52,359 nt of DNA from Acidobacteriota bacterium (lineage in GTDB: Bacteria > Acidobacteriota > Aminicenantia > JBFLYD01). Location: positions 1 through 52,359 of the forward strand of contig JBFLYD010000019.1 of NCBI GenBank assembly GCA_040756905.1, read 5' to 3'. The notes below the pieces were generated by a model that saw only the letters and a list, made by a program, of their open reading frames with translations, searched no databases and had not been told where the DNA came from. A program made the translations under genes and the position numbers. Below are positions 13,600-31,802 of the stretch, piece by piece. Numbering within the stretch: the first letter of the stretch is position 1; each line of letters opens with the position of its first letter.

Positions 13600-15105
13600 T
13601 CAAAATTCTTTATCATAGACTGGCTTTACATCCACCGGAATGTCTTTTAATTTTTCAATCGATGTTTTCAAAAAATCTGGAATTTTAGAGTATCTCTCAA
13701 TCATCAATGAAGAAGCAGGGTAGTCTCTTTTTCCTTCAATGGTTAGAAGCTCTTTTGCAAGGTTACTTACTGACTTTTTTATCCTTTCTTCGTTGATTGA
13801 GTATTTTTTGTTAACTAAATCGTAAGTAATTGCTCCATCATTAAGAAGATAATTAAACTGCAAAAGATTAGCTTTTGCATGGGCTTCTTCAGCTCCAAAT
13901 CGAATCGAACGAAATATCGAAGCTAAATAAGTCGCATACATTTTCTTTTCCATTTCTTCTAATATTACCTTTTTCTTTATCAAATAGTCAAAATTAAAAA
14001 GCCCCAATATATCTGCTTTTGCTTCCTCTATCACTGCATAATTCTCCTTCAATTCTTTATTCACAGTGCTAATCGATCCATCAGATTTCTTTATAAAATT
14101 TATTCCCAGGGGATGGCTCAACTCATGAAGTAATACATTATAGAAAAAACCGTCAAAAGTTACATCTGAAATCAATTCCTCTGACACAATTTCTTTAGCG
14201 ATTGGAAGCAATGTATTCTCAAACTTTGCTCTCATTATATTTCTCAGTATTACTTTCCTCGTTCCCTTTTCCTCCCTTACTTTTTCATCGTTTGGAAGAG
14301 CAAAAGCTATAGCATGAATTCCCCAGTTGCCCTCTCCAGAGGAAAAAATCTCATCAGCGATTCTTATTGGAGAAAAAATTCCTGGCTTTGCAGCTTTATA
14401 CTGGGCTTCCACTGGAAGGTTTTTCTGCAACTCACTTAAATATGAAGAGAAATTTTCAATTTTTTTACTTTCCTCAAAATCATTAAGATAAATAAAACAT
14501 TCATAGGAGGTCTTTAATCCTAACAATTTATCTTCATAATTTTCATAAGGTCCTATAACAATTTCTATTTGATTATCTTTTAAATCGAGCCAGTCACAAT
14601 CACTCTGAAAAAAATTATCGGTTAAAAGGTCCTCTGCTCTCTGGGATAAATATTTTTTTAATGTTAGATTTTCAGCAATCTGAGCTGCTTCTTTCAGCAC
14701 GTTTGAAGCCTTTTCTAAATAATCTCTATATTCAACGTTGTATGGAATAGCCTCGAGTTCCTTCTCTTTTCTTTTTAATACAGTAAAAGGACTCTCAAAT
14801 AAACTCTTCAATTCAGGATTTTCTTTAACGAAATTTTCAAACTCCTCCTTTGTCATGTTCTCAGGATAAAATTTTTTTTCTATCTGAATCTTGAATATCT
14901 GATCTATTATCTCTGAGGCATTTAAAAATTTATTTAATAATTGCTTCTCGTTTTGATTTATTCTTTCCTTATCCCATTCAATTAAGACTTCCACAAGTTT
15001 CTTTTCTTTCTTATCCAATTCCTGATTTTCAACAAAAGAAAGATTTAAAAATAAAATGCTCAAAAAAAAACGCAAAAAAAAGAAACCAATGCCTTTAAAT
15101 TTCAT
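13600..15105 (-). CDS. exported M49-like (dipeptidyl-peptidase III-related) metallopeptidase
   Basis: A signal-like segment (FFFLRFFLSILFLNLSF) precedes a 480-residue body. The zinc signature is HELSH at 327-331, followed by PLG. EEAKAD at 360-365 matches the second M49 motif (EExxA[DE]) at the usual distance. M49 proper has HExxGH; here the spacing is HExxH, as in bacterial relatives. Family knowledge predicts an aminopeptidase-type release of dipeptides, here outside the cytoplasm. A HELSHPLG core with an acidic second motif could also fit a non-peptidase relative. A small palindromic element fills the whole gap to topA, four bases upstream of this ATG. Confidence 0.7.
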   Translation of the reverse strand: MKFKGIGFFFLRFFLSILFLNLSFVENQELDKKEKKLVEVLIEWDKERINQNEKQLLNKFLNASEIIDQIFKIQIEKKFYPENMTKEEFENFVKENPELKSLFESPFTVLKRKEKELEAIPYNVEYRDYLEKASNVLKEAAQIAENLTLKKYLSQRAEDLLTDNFFQSDCDWLDLKDNQIEIVIGPYENYEDKLLGLKTSYECFIYLNDFEESKKIENFSSYLSELQKNLPVEAQYKAAKPGIFSPIRIADEIFSSGEGNWGIHAIAFALPNDEKVREEKGTRKVILRNIMRAKFENTLLPIAKEIVSEELISDVTFDGFFYNVLLHELSHPLGINFIKKSDGSISTVNKELKENYAVIEEAKADILGLFNFDYLIKKKVILEEMEKKMYATYLASIFRSIRFGAEEAHAKANLLQFNYLLNDGAITYDLVNKKYSINEERIKKSVSNLAKELLTIEGKRDYPASSLMIERYSKIPDFLKTSIEKLKDIPVDVKPVYDKEF

Positions 15106-17528: not shown

Positions 17529-18656
17529 TTATTTTTCATAACTCAGTTCCCAGACATCATTGTAGAGAGACCCCCATCTGGGCACGCCTGCCCAACCACC
17601 ATAGATGAACATTCTTTTGCCATCGGACGCAGCCGTGAAGGGTGCTCTGGGTGATGGAAGCGAACCAGTAAACTCCAATTTCTCCCACTCAAGGGTATCG
17701 AGATTTAGCGAGTATGTTTCACCCAGGGCCGATTGCCGCTGCCAATTTCCATCCCAACCTCCAAAGATAATCAATCGGTTCAAATCCTCCAGAAGGGCAT
17801 GCCCTACATAGCCCCTGGCGCTTGGAGGATTCTTGGTCTGAAGTTTTGTCCAGGTCCAGTTTCGCAGGTCCAAGACATAAACCTCTGATAGATAACTCTC
17901 ACGGTCAGTGAAGGTAGAGCCCATGAACATAATCGCTCGATGATTTCTCCTGTCCAAGGCAACGGCTGGGTTAGTGTGGGGCGGAGGAATATCTCCTTTC
18001 GATTCGATTTTCGTCCATTGACCTGTTTTCAAATCGAACAAAGTAATTTGGTTTATAGAACCTGCACCGTGAAGATTCCCAAAGGGAGTCAGGCAGCCTC
18101 CAAAAAGGAGTATTTTTTCATCCCCTATATAAAGCATGGCAGTTCGCACCATGCGTGGATGGTGTTCTCCCTTGGTTTTTATCACACTCCATCTACTTGT
18201 TTTGAGATCAAAGGAATATACGTTGTAATCTGCGAACATCAAACCTGTTCCATCTGAGCCAAATACAACCATCCGGTCGCTTTCTGGAATATAAGCAGCA
18301 GAATGCATTGCCCTGGGCTCAGGAATTTCACCCCTCGCCCCAATAGCCTCGAGCTTCGTCCAGGTGTTCTTATCCAGATCTACAGCCCAGATATCATTGT
18401 AATTTCTTCCATGAAGCCCTCCGCCAAATAAAATCAGGCGATTTCTCTTACTGTCATAAATGAGTGAAACAAATTCGCGATCGGCGAAGGGGCCCTGACC
18501 ATCGAGCTCTAATTTTTTCCAGACGAATCTCAGCGGGTTATTTTGTGCATCTGCTTCTGGGATGGTGAAAGCAAATGCCAGGGAAAACAGAATGCAGATG
18601 TTAATAAATTTCCTGCATAAAGGGTTGTTAAGATACCAACCTTTACTCCTAAACAT
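17529..18656 (-). CDS. exported six-bladed kelch propeller protein
   Basis: The start at 18656 is set by AGGAGG with a six-base spacer. An upstream in-frame ATG at 18689 overlaps the end of the preceding gene and lacks such a site. A signal peptide (FINICILFSLAFAFTIPEADA) precedes six kelch motifs: LILFGGG...NDIWAVDLDKNTWTKL, MVVFGSDG...NVYSFDLKTSRWSVI, ILLFGGC...ITLFDLKTGQWTKI, AIMFMGS...VYVLDLRNWTWTKL, LIIFGGWDG...TYSLNLDTLEWEKL and MFIYGGWAG...NDVWELSY. It is a binding propeller without catalytic residues. It follows the 1214-residue metallopeptidase-like gene by 19 bases and is almost certainly in the same operon, with the ribosome site inside the end of that gene. Confidence 0.85.
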   Translation of the reverse strand: MFRSKGWYLNNPLCRKFINICILFSLAFAFTIPEADAQNNPLRFVWKKLELDGQGPFADREFVSLIYDSKRNRLILFGGGLHGRNYNDIWAVDLDKNTWTKLEAIGARGEIPEPRAMHSAAYIPESDRMVVFGSDGTGLMFADYNVYSFDLKTSRWSVIKTKGEHHPRMVRTAMLYIGDEKILLFGGCLTPFGNLHGAGSINQITLFDLKTGQWTKIESKGDIPPPHTNPAVALDRRNHRAIMFMGSTFTDRESYLSEVYVLDLRNWTWTKLQTKNPPSARGYVGHALLEDLNRLIIFGGWDGNWQRQSALGETYSLNLDTLEWEKLEFTGSLPSPRAPFTAASDGKRMFIYGGWAGVPRWGSLYNDVWELSYEK

Positions 18657-18675: not shown

Positions 18676-21600
18676 TTATCGTTCCCCATTTAACATCTTA
18701 TAAAATAGCCTTTCTATCTCCACCAACAACCTTGGGTCTTGTTTACTCAGAAATTCAATAAATCTCGCTCCCCCTTCATAAAACGAGATTCTACTAAAAG
18801 GCTCTCCTACGTAATGATTTTCTTCAAGATCGAGCCTAAGCCTGACTTGATTTTCGATAAAACGCGCTAACCCTTCTTTCCATTCCTGCCAAACCATATA
18901 TTCAAAATCGTTTTTGGCCAAAATCCGCTTTAATTCGCTACGATATTTAGAAATGTCATGAGGTTTATTTTCTTCCAATGCTTTTAAAAATAGAGAATAG
19001 GTTTTAGTGAATTCGTTGTTATCATAGGGAAAGGGATGGTTTAACTCCCATGCATAGTCTTTTTTGGCCATTGCTTTTTGAGCTATATCTAACTTTTCTT
19101 TGAGTTTTTGTTCACAGATCTCAAATTGATAACAATGGAGGAATTCATGAAAGATTGAAGCGTAGCCTTCAAGAGACTCAAAAACTTCACCTGAGATTAC
19201 ACAGACCATCTTACCTCCATAGGACTGGAGTGGAAAGGCAGCTCTTACGCCTTTGGCAATGGGCATCGGAGTGGGTGCCTTTTTAATGAAGATATACCTC
19301 TTTTTAGATGAATCGGCATCAAAGATAAAGAAGTAGCTACCTTCTACAATAGCAATGGGAAATGTTTTTTCTAAGAAAGGGTGGATATCTCTGATCTTAT
19401 TTTGTATTTCAAATATCTTTTGTAAACTGTCATGGTATTTCAATTGCACTTCTCTCGACTGTTTCCAACGAGCGAGTCCTTTTTCTATATCAAGATGTTG
19501 CAACATGAGCGGATAGTAATCTCGCAGCGCCGCTTCACTCTTTTCATACGCCTCCAACTGCTCGTAAAAGAATCGCTCTAGGATGTAACCTTGTCTGTAT
19601 TCGTCCATCATGTCAGCGCGCAGTTGTTCCGTCCACTTGGGGTCTCTTGTGTCGAGGTACTTCAGGGCAATGGCTCTCACCAGACACTCATCAAAAAAAT
19701 GCGTAATAGTTTTTGTCTTGAATTGGTCTTGAAATTCCGGGAGTTGCATGGCCGCTTCAAACAGGGGCTGTGCCCGCTGCTGTTGTGGGCGATAGCGCTC
19801 ATCATAGCTGACCGGATTAGTGATAGAATGGATAAATTCGTGCGGATTGTAGCCCCATTGGTCTGGAGGTCCATTCTGCGGCCCTTCAATGGAATAAAGG
19901 GTATCCTGCCAAACAAAGGCAAAAGCATATTCATAGGATAGCAGAAAGTTTGGAATAACTAAGGCCTGTACCACCTCGCCGCGGCCAGCCAACTCCGCTG
20001 GACTTTGAACACGACAATACTTCATCACTTTTGAGACCTCGCGCTGAATCGCAGAAAGATAGCCTTCGACAGCCTTTTGGTAATCTCCGCGAACGCCTTC
20101 ATAGATCGCTTCTATCGGAACAGCGGCGTAGAAATCCCGCAACAACGCGGGTAGTTCCGCCAGTGCGCTGAATCGAGGACGATCGGCGATCTCTCTCCAT
20201 TGCTCGGTAAAGCGAAACTCGGGTGGACCTGAGGTGGCCATGGTTACCACCGTATAGGTATATGGTTCCGCCCGATGCTTTTGATAAAACGTTTGCACGC
20301 GTTCCTTCAACGGACCGGGCGTCACCTCAAAGAGGCGTTCGCGCACTCGCTTTCGAACAGGGTGCATGCCGTTGGGATTGTTTTCCTCGTCGTAACCAGC
20401 CGCGTTGAGGAAAGCGAAAACAGTGAAAATGGTCTTGTTTTCCGTTAGACGAATTCGATTGGTGATAAACTGGTCAAGACTCAATGTAGGCGTATCTTTG
20501 TCGTGAAATAAGTCATCCTTTAGGCCGATGTTAAACTTTGCCTCTTTGATTTCTCTCCTGCTTTCCAACTTGCCGTTGACATATACCTCCGCTTTAAAGG
20601 GAATCATAAACTTTCCATCCACTTTGCGATAATCGGAGAACCTTATCTCCCTTTGCAATCGGGCAAAGGGTATGCTCTCCAAAAGATAGGTGATGAGGAG
20701 GGACTGTTTATCTAGCCAGATCTGGGTAGAAGTTGTCCCACCTTCGCTGGCACCAATTACATAAACCTCTCTTCCATCTACTTTTTTCGTATGCATTACA
20801 TCGGCAGCAACGGAAAGTCTGTGGTCTTGACCTTTTCCTTCGATGTCTCCAGTGAGTTGATGAAGAAACTGCTCAAAGGTTGAACTGTAAAGAGTGAAAG
20901 GAAGATACTGAAGATTCTGATCCACTTCTGGAACGCCGCGCCTGGCTTCTTTTTCACTCATGAGGATGCCATCTTTCCAAATGGATGCTTTCCCCTCGGG
21001 CGTCTCGACCTTCCAGAACGCTGGTGATTTGAAATAGACCTTTTGCTCAAACCTCTTGGGTTCGCCACTTTTCTCTGAAGTGCCTCCTACTCGACTATCG
21101 TATTCTTCGACTACCTCCGTTAACACTACATCCTGAAACCCTGCGCCCTGCGCTTTAGCTTTGTTTATCAACTCACTAAGGAATTTCCGGTTGGGAGGGC
21201 CTTCTTTTATCATCCTGTCACGAACTTCTTCAGGGACAGGGGCAAAGGCCACCTCGATAGCACCAGCAGCAGTGGGGATGCGATTTTTCAGAGCTAAAGT
21301 CTTCGGCTCAAGGATCAAAATCTCCGGGGCTTTGCCTCTTTTTAGCAAGATTAACTTCTTTCCATCCGGAGTAAATCCTCCAAATTCTGGAAAGCCTCCT
21401 GTCTTTAGCATCTTGTGGAATTCAACCTTCGGCTTGTCACCGAAATCTGTCCAGTAGCTGTAAATCTCACCGTTTATTTCTTCTTCTGCTTCTACTTCAT
21501 ACATTCCTTCCCTGCCATCGGTTGTGATGACAATCTGCTTGCCATCGGGCCGAATCAAAATCGCACGACAGAGTTTACCCACCTTGACTGTCAAAACATT

Positions 21601-22320
21601 CTCGATGGATTTTGTATCAATGATGGAGATGTCATCAGTTGTCTTATTGGCAACAATGGCATATCGGCCGTTGGGTGTGATTTGAACATCATGAGGATTT
21701 AGCCCGACTTTTACGTTCTTCACCAATTTTTTCTCTTTTGTATCATAGACAGCAATGGAGTCATAAGTGACTTTCGGAGCGTTAGGGTCAACAAAACCAG
21801 CGATGTTCATCTGAGTGATGTAAAGGTAATGGTCATCAGGAGTTAAGGCTCCTCGCCAGTAATCTTTAATCAGAATAGGAGTCTGTGACAAAAGTTCCCG
21901 TGCAATATAGTCAACTTCAAAAATAGCGCTGGCATCGGATGAGACAACAAAGTATCGGCGATTGTCATGGGCAAAGATGGGATTGCTGATGCCTCTAATT
22001 CTGACATCATTTTTCTCCGTATGGATAACGGTTGTGGTCAGTGTTCGCCAGTTCAACACCCAGATTTGTTTACCATCGTATGTTGCTCGAATCCATGCTG
22101 GTGCCTCACCTCCATAGATTTTCCCAACGACTTTATCAGCTGAAAAATCCACAACGAGGATGTGATTGTTTCTTCCAACGGATAGATAGCCTAAGGTGAT
22201 CTGCGCATCTCTTTTCAAGCCAGTAAACCCCGTTAGAAAGTCTTCACTTTCTAACGGGGTAAACATTGCAGCAAACAAAATGCTGATTAATACTAAAACA
22301 AAGGATTTAAATCTCTTCAT
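18676..22320 (-). CDS. exported propeller / LolA-like / double HExxH metallopeptidase-like protein
   Basis: A 1214-residue exported protein (signal KSFVLVLISILFAAMF) with an unusual domain order. At 35-365 is a YVTN-type beta-propeller (YLSVGRNNHILVVDFSADKVV; PHDVQITPNGRYAIVANKTTDDISIIDT). At about 430-615 is a LolA/lipoprotein-sorting-like half-barrel (YFKSPAFWKVETPEG; TQIWLDKQSLLITYLLE; YRKVDGKFMIPFKAEVY). At about 640-950 is a DUF4932-like zinc domain with HEFIH at 827-831 and Glu878 in FDECLVRA as likely third ligand. At about 990-1214 is a second zinc-type domain with HEFLH at 1058-1062 and Glu1149 in KEGLARFIE. Two complete ligand sets in one chain is odd. The DUF4932-like part is visibly GC-richer than the C-terminal domain. 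AAAGGAGG precedes the ATG; the kelch gene follows in the same operon. Confidence 0.8.
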   Translation of the reverse strand: MKRFKSFVLVLISILFAAMFTPLESEDFLTGFTGLKRDAQITLGYLSVGRNNHILVVDFSADKVVGKIYGGEAPAWIRATYDGKQIWVLNWRTLTTTVIHTEKNDVRIRGISNPIFAHDNRRYFVVSSDASAIFEVDYIARELLSQTPILIKDYWRGALTPDDHYLYITQMNIAGFVDPNAPKVTYDSIAVYDTKEKKLVKNVKVGLNPHDVQITPNGRYAIVANKTTDDISIIDTKSIENVLTVKVGKLCRAILIRPDGKQIVITTDGREGMYEVEAEEEINGEIYSYWTDFGDKPKVEFHKMLKTGGFPEFGGFTPDGKKLILLKRGKAPEILILEPKTLALKNRIPTAAGAIEVAFAPVPEEVRDRMIKEGPPNRKFLSELINKAKAQGAGFQDVVLTEVVEEYDSRVGGTSEKSGEPKRFEQKVYFKSPAFWKVETPEGKASIWKDGILMSEKEARRGVPEVDQNLQYLPFTLYSSTFEQFLHQLTGDIEGKGQDHRLSVAADVMHTKKVDGREVYVIGASEGGTTSTQIWLDKQSLLITYLLESIPFARLQREIRFSDYRKVDGKFMIPFKAEVYVNGKLESRREIKEAKFNIGLKDDLFHDKDTPTLSLDQFITNRIRLTENKTIFTVFAFLNAAGYDEENNPNGMHPVRKRVRERLFEVTPGPLKERVQTFYQKHRAEPYTYTVVTMATSGPPEFRFTEQWREIADRPRFSALAELPALLRDFYAAVPIEAIYEGVRGDYQKAVEGYLSAIQREVSKVMKYCRVQSPAELAGRGEVVQALVIPNFLLSYEYAFAFVWQDTLYSIEGPQNGPPDQWGYNPHEFIHSITNPVSYDERYRPQQQRAQPLFEAAMQLPEFQDQFKTKTITHFFDECLVRAIALKYLDTRDPKWTEQLRADMMDEYRQGYILERFFYEQLEAYEKSEAALRDYYPLMLQHLDIEKGLARWKQSREVQLKYHDSLQKIFEIQNKIRDIHPFLEKTFPIAIVEGSYFFIFDADSSKKRYIFIKKAPTPMPIAKGVRAAFPLQSYGGKMVCVISGEVFESLEGYASIFHEFLHCYQFEICEQKLKEKLDIAQKAMAKKDYAWELNHPFPYDNNEFTKTYSLFLKALEENKPHDISKYRSELKRILAKNDFEYMVWQEWKEGLARFIENQVRLRLDLEENHYVGEPFSRISFYEGGARFIEFLSKQDPRLLVEIERLFYKMLNGER
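22227..22260. repeat. perfect 15-bp inverted repeat inside a signal-peptide coding region
   Basis: ACCCCGTTAGAAAGT (22227-22241) and ACTTTCTAACGGGGT (22246-22260) pair perfectly around CTTC. In the reverse-strand mRNA this is a stable hairpin with a GAAG loop, 60 bases after the start codon of the 1214-residue gene, encoding TPLESEDFLTG at the signal-peptide end. It may slow early translation, or it may be an inserted palindrome that kept the frame. Confidence 0.7.
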
Positions 22321-22530: not shown

Positions 22531-23394
22531 TTATTTGACTAATGTCTTCCTTCTTTTAGCTGACCTCCTCAAAATTTTGCTGCTCTCAAAGACCGAATCA
22601 AAGAATTTGTTTGCTTCTGAAGTTAAAAGTTCCCGATACTCCAAGTAGATTTTTTTCGCCTTTGAGCCTGCCCAATTAACAGGGAGTAATTCCAGGGGCA
22701 ACATAGGATCATCCATTGCAATATCAATAAATTCCACCGTCAATCGGAACCTTTGTACAAAACATTCTCCTGGATCTACTGCTTCCTTTCTTTCTATCTT
22801 GCGTTTATGTGCGGCAAGAAGAGAGGCATATTGGTTGTAAAATTCCTTGTAGCATCTCTCCAACCCTCGAATATCCCAAACTTTAGATATTAATTCCTGC
22901 TCTTCACGGAAACCTGTATATTTTGCCTCAAAGGTCTCCACATACTCCGCTACCTTAAGCTTGTCAAAAATCCTCTCCAGTTCTTCTTTGAAATCATATG
23001 GCGAGATCCACAAAGAACTGCCCAAACTTCCATAACCCAATCTCCGCAACTCATCCCGCAGGGTATCTCGCAAGGAGCGCAACTCCTCAGGTATCGTATA
23101 TACAAGAAGCCTCCATTTTTTATCCCAGGGTTTGGGCTCCCGTTCTAAGGCTCGATGTTTCCCTTTTAGCATCCACTCTTTTCCTTTTTCGCTGAGGGAA
23201 TAATAACTCTGACGTCCTATCTTACGGCTCTGAATTAGTCCTTGTTTAGCCATTCTCGATAAAGCAAGGCGAACAGCAGTTTCAGAGAGATTAAAAGGTT
23301 TAAGGAGCTTTATTAAACTGCTCACCCAAATCTCTCCCCCACGCGGCATGATATATCCTCCAAACAATGTAAAGATTATCGTTAATGTCCGCAC
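22531..23394 (-). CDS. PaaX-family transcriptional regulator
   Basis: The start is GTG at 23394, supported because FTLFGGYIMPRGGEIWVSSL matches the normal PaaX N-terminus. A winged helix follows (LKPFNLSETAVRLALSRMAKQGLIQSRKIGRQSYYSLS). The PaaX central domain (WDKKWRLLVYTIPEELRSLRDTLRDEL; GYGSLGSSLWISPYD) and the C-terminal helical domain (FVQRFRLTVEFIDIAMDDPMLPLELLPVNW) are both present. In E. coli PaaX represses the phenylacetate operon and binds phenylacetyl-CoA. No phenylacetate genes are visible here, so the ligand and targets are open. The next gene downstream, 210 bases away, is the 1214-residue exported protein. Confidence 0.85.
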   Translation of the reverse strand: MRTLTIIFTLFGGYIMPRGGEIWVSSLIKLLKPFNLSETAVRLALSRMAKQGLIQSRKIGRQSYYSLSEKGKEWMLKGKHRALEREPKPWDKKWRLLVYTIPEELRSLRDTLRDELRRLGYGSLGSSLWISPYDFKEELERIFDKLKVAEYVETFEAKYTGFREEQELISKVWDIRGLERCYKEFYNQYASLLAAHKRKIERKEAVDPGECFVQRFRLTVEFIDIAMDDPMLPLELLPVNWAGSKAKKIYLEYRELLTSEANKFFDSVFESSKILRRSAKRRKTLVK

Positions 23395-30476: not shown

Positions 30477-31802
30477 GATTGTGTCCCCATATTCGTAGAA
30501 ATTTATTATTTGACACATAACCATTATCAATTTAACCATTTATGCCACTCTGTCAAGTACTTTTTTGACAACCGGTGACATCTCACGCCAGCCCGAAATC
30601 CGCCGCATAACAATCTGACCGCTGGCAAAAAGACCATAAAGTAGTACTAACACCGCCTCTTCAGAGGGAAGTAAAGCCTGAGTCTTTACCCGACGTCTGA
30701 ATTCACCATAAATCCGCTCAATAATATTCGTGCTCCGTAAACTCTTCCATTGTTCTTTAGGATAATTAAAGAAAGTTAATAACTCAGTCTGCGCCTCTAA
30801 GAGACTTTTGACCACGCCCGGACATTGCTTCTGCCAACGTTTCTCAAAACGGCTCCAAGCAACTAAAGCCTCTTCTCGATTACCCGCATAAATAATTGCG
30901 TGATAATCTTCCTTAATCGCCTCCTGGGTATGCTTTGGAGCATGGGCAAGCAGATTCCGAAGTTTATGAACCACACAGCGCTGTACTTCAATCTTTGGCC
31001 AAATAGCTTCCACCGCCGCACGCAATCCTTGATTCCCATCAATAATAACTAACTGAGGACGAACTAACCCACGACCATCCAATTCCGCTAATACACCCTC
31101 CCAGGCGTTAGTTGATTCTGCACCCATTAACCATAAACCCAACAAAACTTTTTCACCATCTTCCTTTATGCCAACCGCAGCTAAAACCGGCACTCTGACA
31201 ACGCGACCACCAGCACAAATCGTCACGCCAAAACCATCCAGATAAAAATAGGCAATAATTTCATCCTGTAATGGACGCTTTTGCCAGGCTTCAAATTGTT
31301 CTTTTAACCGACCGACTAACCGACTGATTGTGCTTTTTGATAAAGGCGTGCCTTTTAACAGAGGTCGCAGCGCCTTCATAATACGACGGGTATTGGCACC
31401 ACAGAGATAGAGACCTAAAATTGCATCATCAACGGTCTTGGTCCGACGCTGATAGCGAGGAAGAATTTGGCCACGCCACTCAATGGTTGACCCTGCTTCA
31501 GCAAAAAGCCTTCCCCGAGGAAGCGATAAAGTAGTTTTACCCAAAGAAGTAGAAATTTGTCGGGATTCATAGCCATGACGATACCCCTGACGGCCTTCGG
31601 CACGCTGATAAAAACCAACCCCCAAAGCGACCTCAAGCTCTTCATTTACAATCCGCTCAATAACAATACGTACTTCCCGACGAATAGCCTCGGTAAGCGG
31701 ACCTTCCTCAAAGATAACCGTTCCTTTATCAAATTTCATATACTATGCTCCTTTCACTCTAATTATAGCCATTTAAATTTCCACGACAAGTGGGACACAA
31801 CC
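30477..31802. mobile_element. IS256-family insertion sequence, complete, with target duplication
   Basis: The ends are GATTGTGTCCCC at 30477 and, in reverse complement, GGTTGTGTCCCA at 31802; homology continues inward through CGT(A/G)GAAATTTA. The direct repeat TGAATTAT flanks it (30469-30476 and 31803-31810), an 8-bp target duplication as IS256 elements make. It is 1326 bp long with one full transposase gene and GC well above its neighbours, all signs of a recent arrival. It separates the small-membrane/redoxin/NHL operon from whatever lay upstream of it. Confidence 0.92.
30540..31739 (-). CDS. IS256/Mutator-type DDE transposase
   Basis: A complete 399-residue transposase. Family landmarks are the zinc-free N-terminus (GVGFYQRAEGRQGYRHGYESR), ILPRYQRRTKTVDDAILGLYLCG, and the first Asp in IAYFYLDGFGVTI. 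The second Asp is in PQLVIIDGNQGLRAAV followed by VQRCVVHKLRNLLA (the C/DxxxH signature). The last Glu is in LRSTNIIERIYGEFRRRVKT. No frameshift or stop is present, so it is probably active. It fills the element at 30477-31802 and leaves 60 bases on each side for the inverted repeats. Confidence 0.95.
   Translation of the reverse strand: MKFDKGTVIFEEGPLTEAIRREVRIVIERIVNEELEVALGVGFYQRAEGRQGYRHGYESRQISTSLGKTTLSLPRGRLFAEAGSTIEWRGQILPRYQRRTKTVDDAILGLYLCGANTRRIMKALRPLLKGTPLSKSTISRLVGRLKEQFEAWQKRPLQDEIIAYFYLDGFGVTICAGGRVVRVPVLAAVGIKEDGEKVLLGLWLMGAESTNAWEGVLAELDGRGLVRPQLVIIDGNQGLRAAVEAIWPKIEVQRCVVHKLRNLLAHAPKHTQEAIKEDYHAIIYAGNREEALVAWSRFEKRWQKQCPGVVKSLLEAQTELLTFFNYPKEQWKSLRSTNIIERIYGEFRRRVKTQALLPSEEAVLVLLYGLFASGQIVMRRISGWREMSPVVKKVLDRVA

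Follow-up and report, generated by a model that had tools for sequence, protein, structure and literature searches.

How does a single exported chain come to hold two zinc-peptidase-like sites, and what might it do with them? The question is raised by a gene on the minus strand of contig JBFLYD010000019.1, whose 52,359 nucleotides (the window) belong to the 2.56 Mb draft assembly of an Aminicenantia bacterium of the phylum Acidobacteriota. The reading frame (18676..22320) is intact over 1214 codons, with an AGGAGG ribosome-binding site 5' of its ATG start, and residues 1–25 resemble a cleavable signal peptide and contain no lipobox cysteine, from which we infer that the protein is exported, to the periplasm or beyond. 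HExxH occurs exactly twice in the chain, as HEFIH (residues 827–831) and HEFLH (1058–1062), against a composition-based expectation of 0.038. The initial annotation described an exported chain with a propeller, a LolA-like domain and two complete HExxH sites, and the intact frame and the conserved, putative third-ligand glutamates bear this out; its two protease domains also stand, their borders moving from 640–950 and 990–1214 to ~615–948 and 949–1214 (Table 1). We favour, at a probability of roughly 60%, a natural in-frame gene fusion that yields an exported multidomain metallopeptidase with two zinc sites and accompanying binding domains. Two non-homologous zinc-peptidase-like sites within one exported chain are an unusual arrangement.

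The first site lies in the middle domain, where His827, His831 and Glu878 do not vary in any of 29 aligned homologues; as these were gathered without any motif requirement, the lack of variation makes a good case for a His-His-Glu metal site. Relatives were picked up with a profile of the domain in 65 of 347 genomes of the phylum, and standalone homologues include L109 and, at a greater distance, L106 and L107. L109, from another Acidobacteriota family, is 48% identical to the middle domain and has the complete motif, but is a 384-residue probable lipoprotein without the other three parts of the window protein. The Pfam model DUF4932 (PF16286) has no match to the window protein or to the isolated domain, yet weakly matches 21 of the 29 relatives at E ≤ 0.5 (best 1.1e-6). 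Profile-profile alignment by hhalign with four DUF4932 members that exceed the Pfam cut-off extends over the full length, at 98.3% (E 1.3e-14) and 99.2% probability (E 5.4e-20), indicating homology of the whole domain, and the HEFxH and downstream ExLVRA motifs fall in register (HEFIH and DECLVRA in the window; HEFNH/HEFGH and ESLVRA/ESMVRA in L167 and L168). Since it has no Pfam match of its own, the middle domain is, judged by sequence, a remote relative of DUF4932 and not a listed member, with the difference that its chain also carries, fused to it, a propeller, a LolA-like domain and a further zincin-like domain. Searches of solved structures with its sequence profile returned chance matches only, and no homologues were found in viral contigs. 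In the literature, DUF4932 came up in one paper on another subject, which names it once. Eight Acidobacteriota relatives of ~500 residues (L111, L112, L114, L115, L126, L127, L128 and L134) have HGYLH or HTYLH in place of a motif with the catalytic glutamate, and are probably metal-binding pseudoenzymes.

The second site lies in a C-terminal domain of an unnamed family, with His1058, His1062 and Glu1149 as its putative ligands. All 44 aligned family members of set A5 have HExxH and 43 of them have Glu1149, in a set that is biased in that it was partly selected by motif, the scan seeds being [IV][LF]HEF[VL]HC and [TV]WQEWKE. Both features are invariant (7/7) in set A1, whose six same-class homologues were collected by BLAST with no motif selection. 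One genome scan confirmed at least 105 loci of this family, 80 of which were read; the standalone relatives are mostly 250–320 residues long and are found in WOR-3, Acetothermia, Chloroflexi, Bacteroidota, Aminicenantes, Calditrichota, Paenibacillus, Clostridium, Thermococci and others, some with a signal-peptide-like N-terminus and many without. The closest likeness is to members such as the WOR-3 protein in L026: identity reaches 74% and all conserved residues of the HEFxHC/WQEWKEG family are shared, but the L026 protein is a standalone chain of 285 residues with its own signal-peptide-like N-terminus. Elsewhere the family is apparently fused to a Nudix-like domain (L035, L037 and L038, from Chloroflexi and Blastopirellula) or to an alpha/beta-hydrolase (L074, Aminicenantes). 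Apart from generic genes and a synteny specific to Anaerolineaceae, no conserved neighbour was seen across phyla; in that family the standalone gene appears to lie near thiolase and 2-oxoacid:ferredoxin oxidoreductase-like genes (L045, L047, L050, L054, L055, L057, L065, L071 and L077).

The C-terminal domain has no sequence match in Pfam, NCBIfam or the PDB, and a profile search of the PDB gave chance matches only. Its AlphaFold2 model is very confident, with a predicted local distance difference test score (pLDDT) of 95.8, and consists of a five-strand beta region, a helix bearing HExxH and a later helix carrying Glu1149, so that the predicted order of elements (sheet, HExxH helix, Glu helix) is gluzincin-like. 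Gluzincins classically combine HExxH with a conserved glutamate on a helix further down the chain, and HExxH with a conserved downstream glutamate is found in both domains of the window protein. Foldseek found no match of the model to solved zincins or any other PDB entry at E ≤ 0.001 (best E 0.69), nor was there a match in a viral fold library. The same program did recover propellers for the N-terminal part, yet TM-scores were low throughout, the propeller matches included, and the absent PDB match is for this reason only suggestive. The family is of use beyond this locus: it occurs at 105 or more loci, in archaea and across many phyla of bacteria, its active-site-like residues are strictly conserved, its model is very confident, and neither Pfam nor NCBIfam has a name for it.

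The profiles of the two domains are unrelated (hhalign probability 5.3%), ruling out a duplication of one domain into both, and the claim that HEFIH/Glu878 and HEFLH/Glu1149 form separate, complete ligand sets holds, with the addition that they belong to non-homologous domains. Somatic angiotensin-converting enzyme likewise has two HExxH...E zinc peptidase sites per chain, but there two homologous M2 domains were joined, having arisen by duplication (PMC1325048); the window protein, with its unrelated domains, is no tandem of this kind.

Composition and phylogeny suggest how the two came together. Third-position GC falls from 0.54 to 0.35 along the gene, the change being best placed at residue 940, and none of 300 shuffles reaches this step. 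At the joint, L109 ends '...LDPEAELARWREAHGRAATPAAAR', the L026 protein begins, past its signal peptide, '...ARLEEVQLKYNSGLQK', and the window protein reads '...LDIEKGLARWKQSREVQLKYHDSLQK', so that the joint coincides exactly with the border of two complete domains, the second of which has lost its signal peptide. A tree places the C-terminal domain with proteins from WOR-3, an unnamed bacterium and Acetothermia (support 99/94) and not with those of Aminicenantes; the domain is up to 74% identical to the WOR-3 and Acetothermia proteins and 39–48% identical to those of its own class, Aminicenantia. Together, the compositional step and this grouping suggest that the C-terminal part was acquired horizontally and joined in frame to a gene of other composition. 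In relatives the two protease-like parts are found on separate chains only, so that the window protein has the look of a recent fusion whose parts differ in origin, and we hold the fusion of two independent zincin-like domains to be very probable. The same domain order was found in no relative, among sampled genomes that include none from the source organism's own family, in agreement with the initial statement that no described family is known to have this order; among the 80 C-terminal relatives read, none is joined to any other part of the window protein. Since the compositional step persists at the joint, the assembly of a multidomain protease from separate genes can still be read in the sequence. 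A plasmid or phage origin was rejected, as plasmid matches were confined to the propeller, with none to the C-terminal domain, and phages gave no matches.

The N-terminal part is a YVTN-type beta-propeller, scoring 30.5 bits with the YVTN repeat model TIGR02276 (cut-off 27.85) and 31 bits with Pfam Cytochrom_D1 (PF02239, cut-off 25.5). Its best match in the PDB, by sequence (E 6.6e-22) and by Foldseek, is the archaeal YVTN S-layer propeller 1l0q, which differs from the window protein in having no peptidase domains. The region is modelled with low confidence in the full-length prediction, which has a mean pLDDT of 55.8 and is unreliable outside the C-terminal domain. The LolA-like half-barrel, first placed at residues 430–615, is weakly supported at ~502–613 and not over the whole span: LolA_like (PF17131) scores 18.0 bits over residues 507–607, below its gathering cut-off of 30, so that the stretch is not a member of that family by score, and BLAST matches it to standalone LolA-like proteins of the class (~250 residues) and to the C-terminal part of M16-type peptidase-like proteins. 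The latter, represented in the class by L015 and L020 with the LolA-like domain at their end, are another pairing of a peptidase-like protein with a LolA-like domain, though the peptidase family differs from those seen here. No other protein combining the propeller with the LolA-like part was found among the 347 phylum genomes.

Two conserved metal-site motifs, two binding-type domains, an exported chain and a lineage of reported protein degraders make extracytoplasmic proteolysis, with two cleavage specificities acting on a captured substrate, the most likely role on present sequence evidence; Aminicenantes have been reported as protein-degradation specialists (PMC6469976). The propeller and the LolA-like half-barrel would capture a protein or lipidated peptide as substrate and hold it in position, zinc would be held at each site by the His-His-Glu triad, and the glutamate of each HExxH would act as general base in peptide-bond hydrolysis. 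Were the two sites of different specificity, they could cut one substrate in turn, and the fusion would provide for its stepwise degradation; the adjacent kelch propeller, if co-transcribed, might be a further exported binding partner. Whether both sites are catalytically active peptidases is a question on which we find the evidence evenly balanced. Considerably more tentative is the proposal that the C-terminal domain represents a new zinc-peptidase family of wide distribution, arranged in a manner for which the PDB has no example, and that it supplies the second blade of a protease whose two sites are drawn from unrelated lineages, their common substrate being held by the propeller and the LolA-like half-barrel.

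Several observations weigh against a metallopeptidase with two working sites. No characterised enzyme of either family was found; the middle domain is modelled at a pLDDT of mostly 26–70 in the full-length prediction; the C-terminal family, many of whose members lack a signal peptide, is not tied to extracellular proteolysis; and the catalytic-type Glu828 is replaced by Gly or Thr in 8 of the 29 middle-domain relatives while the ligands are kept, so that the middle-domain family probably includes pseudoenzymes. This last result, by which non-catalytic metal binding is seemingly tolerated, is what gives some standing to a protein with one active peptidase site only, whose remaining domain (the DUF4932-like one is the likeliest) would be a zinc- or substrate-binding pseudoenzyme that aids substrate capture. 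The catalytic glutamate is nevertheless kept in the window protein and in all three of its closest relatives, L109, L106 and L107, and we regard a single active site as possible but doubtful.

It is also unlikely, in our view, that the domains are metal hydrolases other than general peptidases, the C-terminal family having a narrow, possibly regulatory or maturation role. Such a role would suit a family that occurs both with and without signal peptides, extends to archaea, Paenibacillus and Clostridium, is joined elsewhere to Nudix-type or alpha/beta-hydrolase domains and has neither a neighbour conserved across phyla nor a fold match in the PDB. It would sit less easily with the classic gluzincin arrangement of HExxH and a later-helix glutamate, and with the exported context in the window protein.

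The initial annotation further proposed a secreted two-protein system, in which the large protein and the kelch propeller encoded next to it bind and process one peptide or lipoprotein. The kelch gene most likely starts at the ATG at 18656, which has an AGGAGG site and lies 19 nt past the stop codon of the large gene, leaving the two genes adjacent and not overlapping; the start of a longer open reading frame, at 18689, has no such site. This spacing and the ribosome-binding site make co-transcription likely, both proteins have signal-peptide-like N-termini, and GC is raised in the kelch gene as it is in the first three domains. No kelch homologue was found, however, in 140 other genomes of the class (at E 1e-15) or in the fetched surroundings of the 80 C-terminal relatives, so that adjacency is what speaks for the partnership, and no candidate substrate gene was recognised. 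With co-occurrence lacking, the two-protein proposal is not borne out and we consider it improbable.

It is very improbable that the large gene is an assembly or sequencing artefact that joined two genes near residues 940–950: the joint is seen once, in a draft assembly, at a sharp change in composition and in no relative, but it is in frame, it lies precisely where the conserved residues of the middle domain end and the mature C-terminal domain starts, the second signal peptide is cleanly missing, and the low-GC segment gives way after 19 nt to the kelch gene, with its perfect ribosome-binding site and a third-position GC back at 0.46, so that with higher-GC sequence on both flanks and both edges clean a simple misjoin would require two coincidences.

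Table 1. Features of the large gene and of its neighbours, with positions in the window.
Feature	Position	Strand	Evidence
Whole gene, exported four-part protein, 1214 residues	18676..22320	minus	single open reading frame, ATG, AGGAGG site
Signal-peptide-like N-terminus, residues 1–25, no lipobox Cys	22246..22320	minus	KRFK followed by hydrophobic stretch
YVTN-type beta-propeller, residues ~26–365	21226..22245	minus	Pfam/NCBIfam matches; 1l0q by sequence and Foldseek
LolA-like half-barrel, residues 430–615 (direct evidence ~502–613)	20476..21033	minus	sub-threshold PF17131; BLAST
Middle metallopeptidase-like domain, residues 616–948, remote DUF4932 relative	19477..20475	minus	48% identity to L109; hhalign 98–99%
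HEFIH, residues 827–831	19828..19842	minus	both His invariant in 29/29, Glu828 in 21/29
Glu878, proposed third zinc ligand (FFDECLVR)	19687..19689	minus	invariant in 29/29 homologues
Fusion joint, residues ~940–950	19470..19503	minus	third-position GC change point at 940; standalone relatives end or begin here
C-terminal metallopeptidase-like domain, residues 949–1214, unnamed widespread family	18679..19476	minus	105 relatives; pLDDT 95.8; no Pfam/NCBIfam/PDB match
HEFLH, residues 1058–1062	19135..19149	minus	HExxH invariant in A1 (7/7) and A5 (44/44)
Glu1149, proposed third zinc ligand (WQEWKEG)	18874..18876	minus	7/7 in A1, 43/44 in A5; model helix 1136–1162
Kelch propeller, signal-peptide-like N-terminus, probably co-transcribed	17529..18656	minus	AGGAGG, ATG; Kelch models up to 5.8e-61
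PaaX-type transcriptional regulator, upstream	22531..23394	minus	PaaX Pfam domains; TIGR02277 224.8 bits, below cut-off 264.55

As for the surroundings, a role in defence was rejected, PADLOC assigning neither the large protein nor the kelch protein to any family. The PaaX-type regulator lies 210 bp upstream of the large gene. Two genes downstream of the kelch gene, at 13600–15105 on the minus strand, is a gene for another exported metallopeptidase-like protein, which matches peptidase M49, the family of dipeptidyl peptidase III, at E 2.8e-15 and contains an HELSH motif. Third-position GC is above that of most of the contig at 2532–13379, where the genes encode VWA-like, GWxTD plus TPR, carboxypeptidase-regulatory plus TPR and sulfatase plus TPR proteins and a TonB-type outer-membrane barrel. 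A Mutator-family transposase gene (30543–31742, minus strand) has a GC of 0.46, with ~0.29–0.35 around it.

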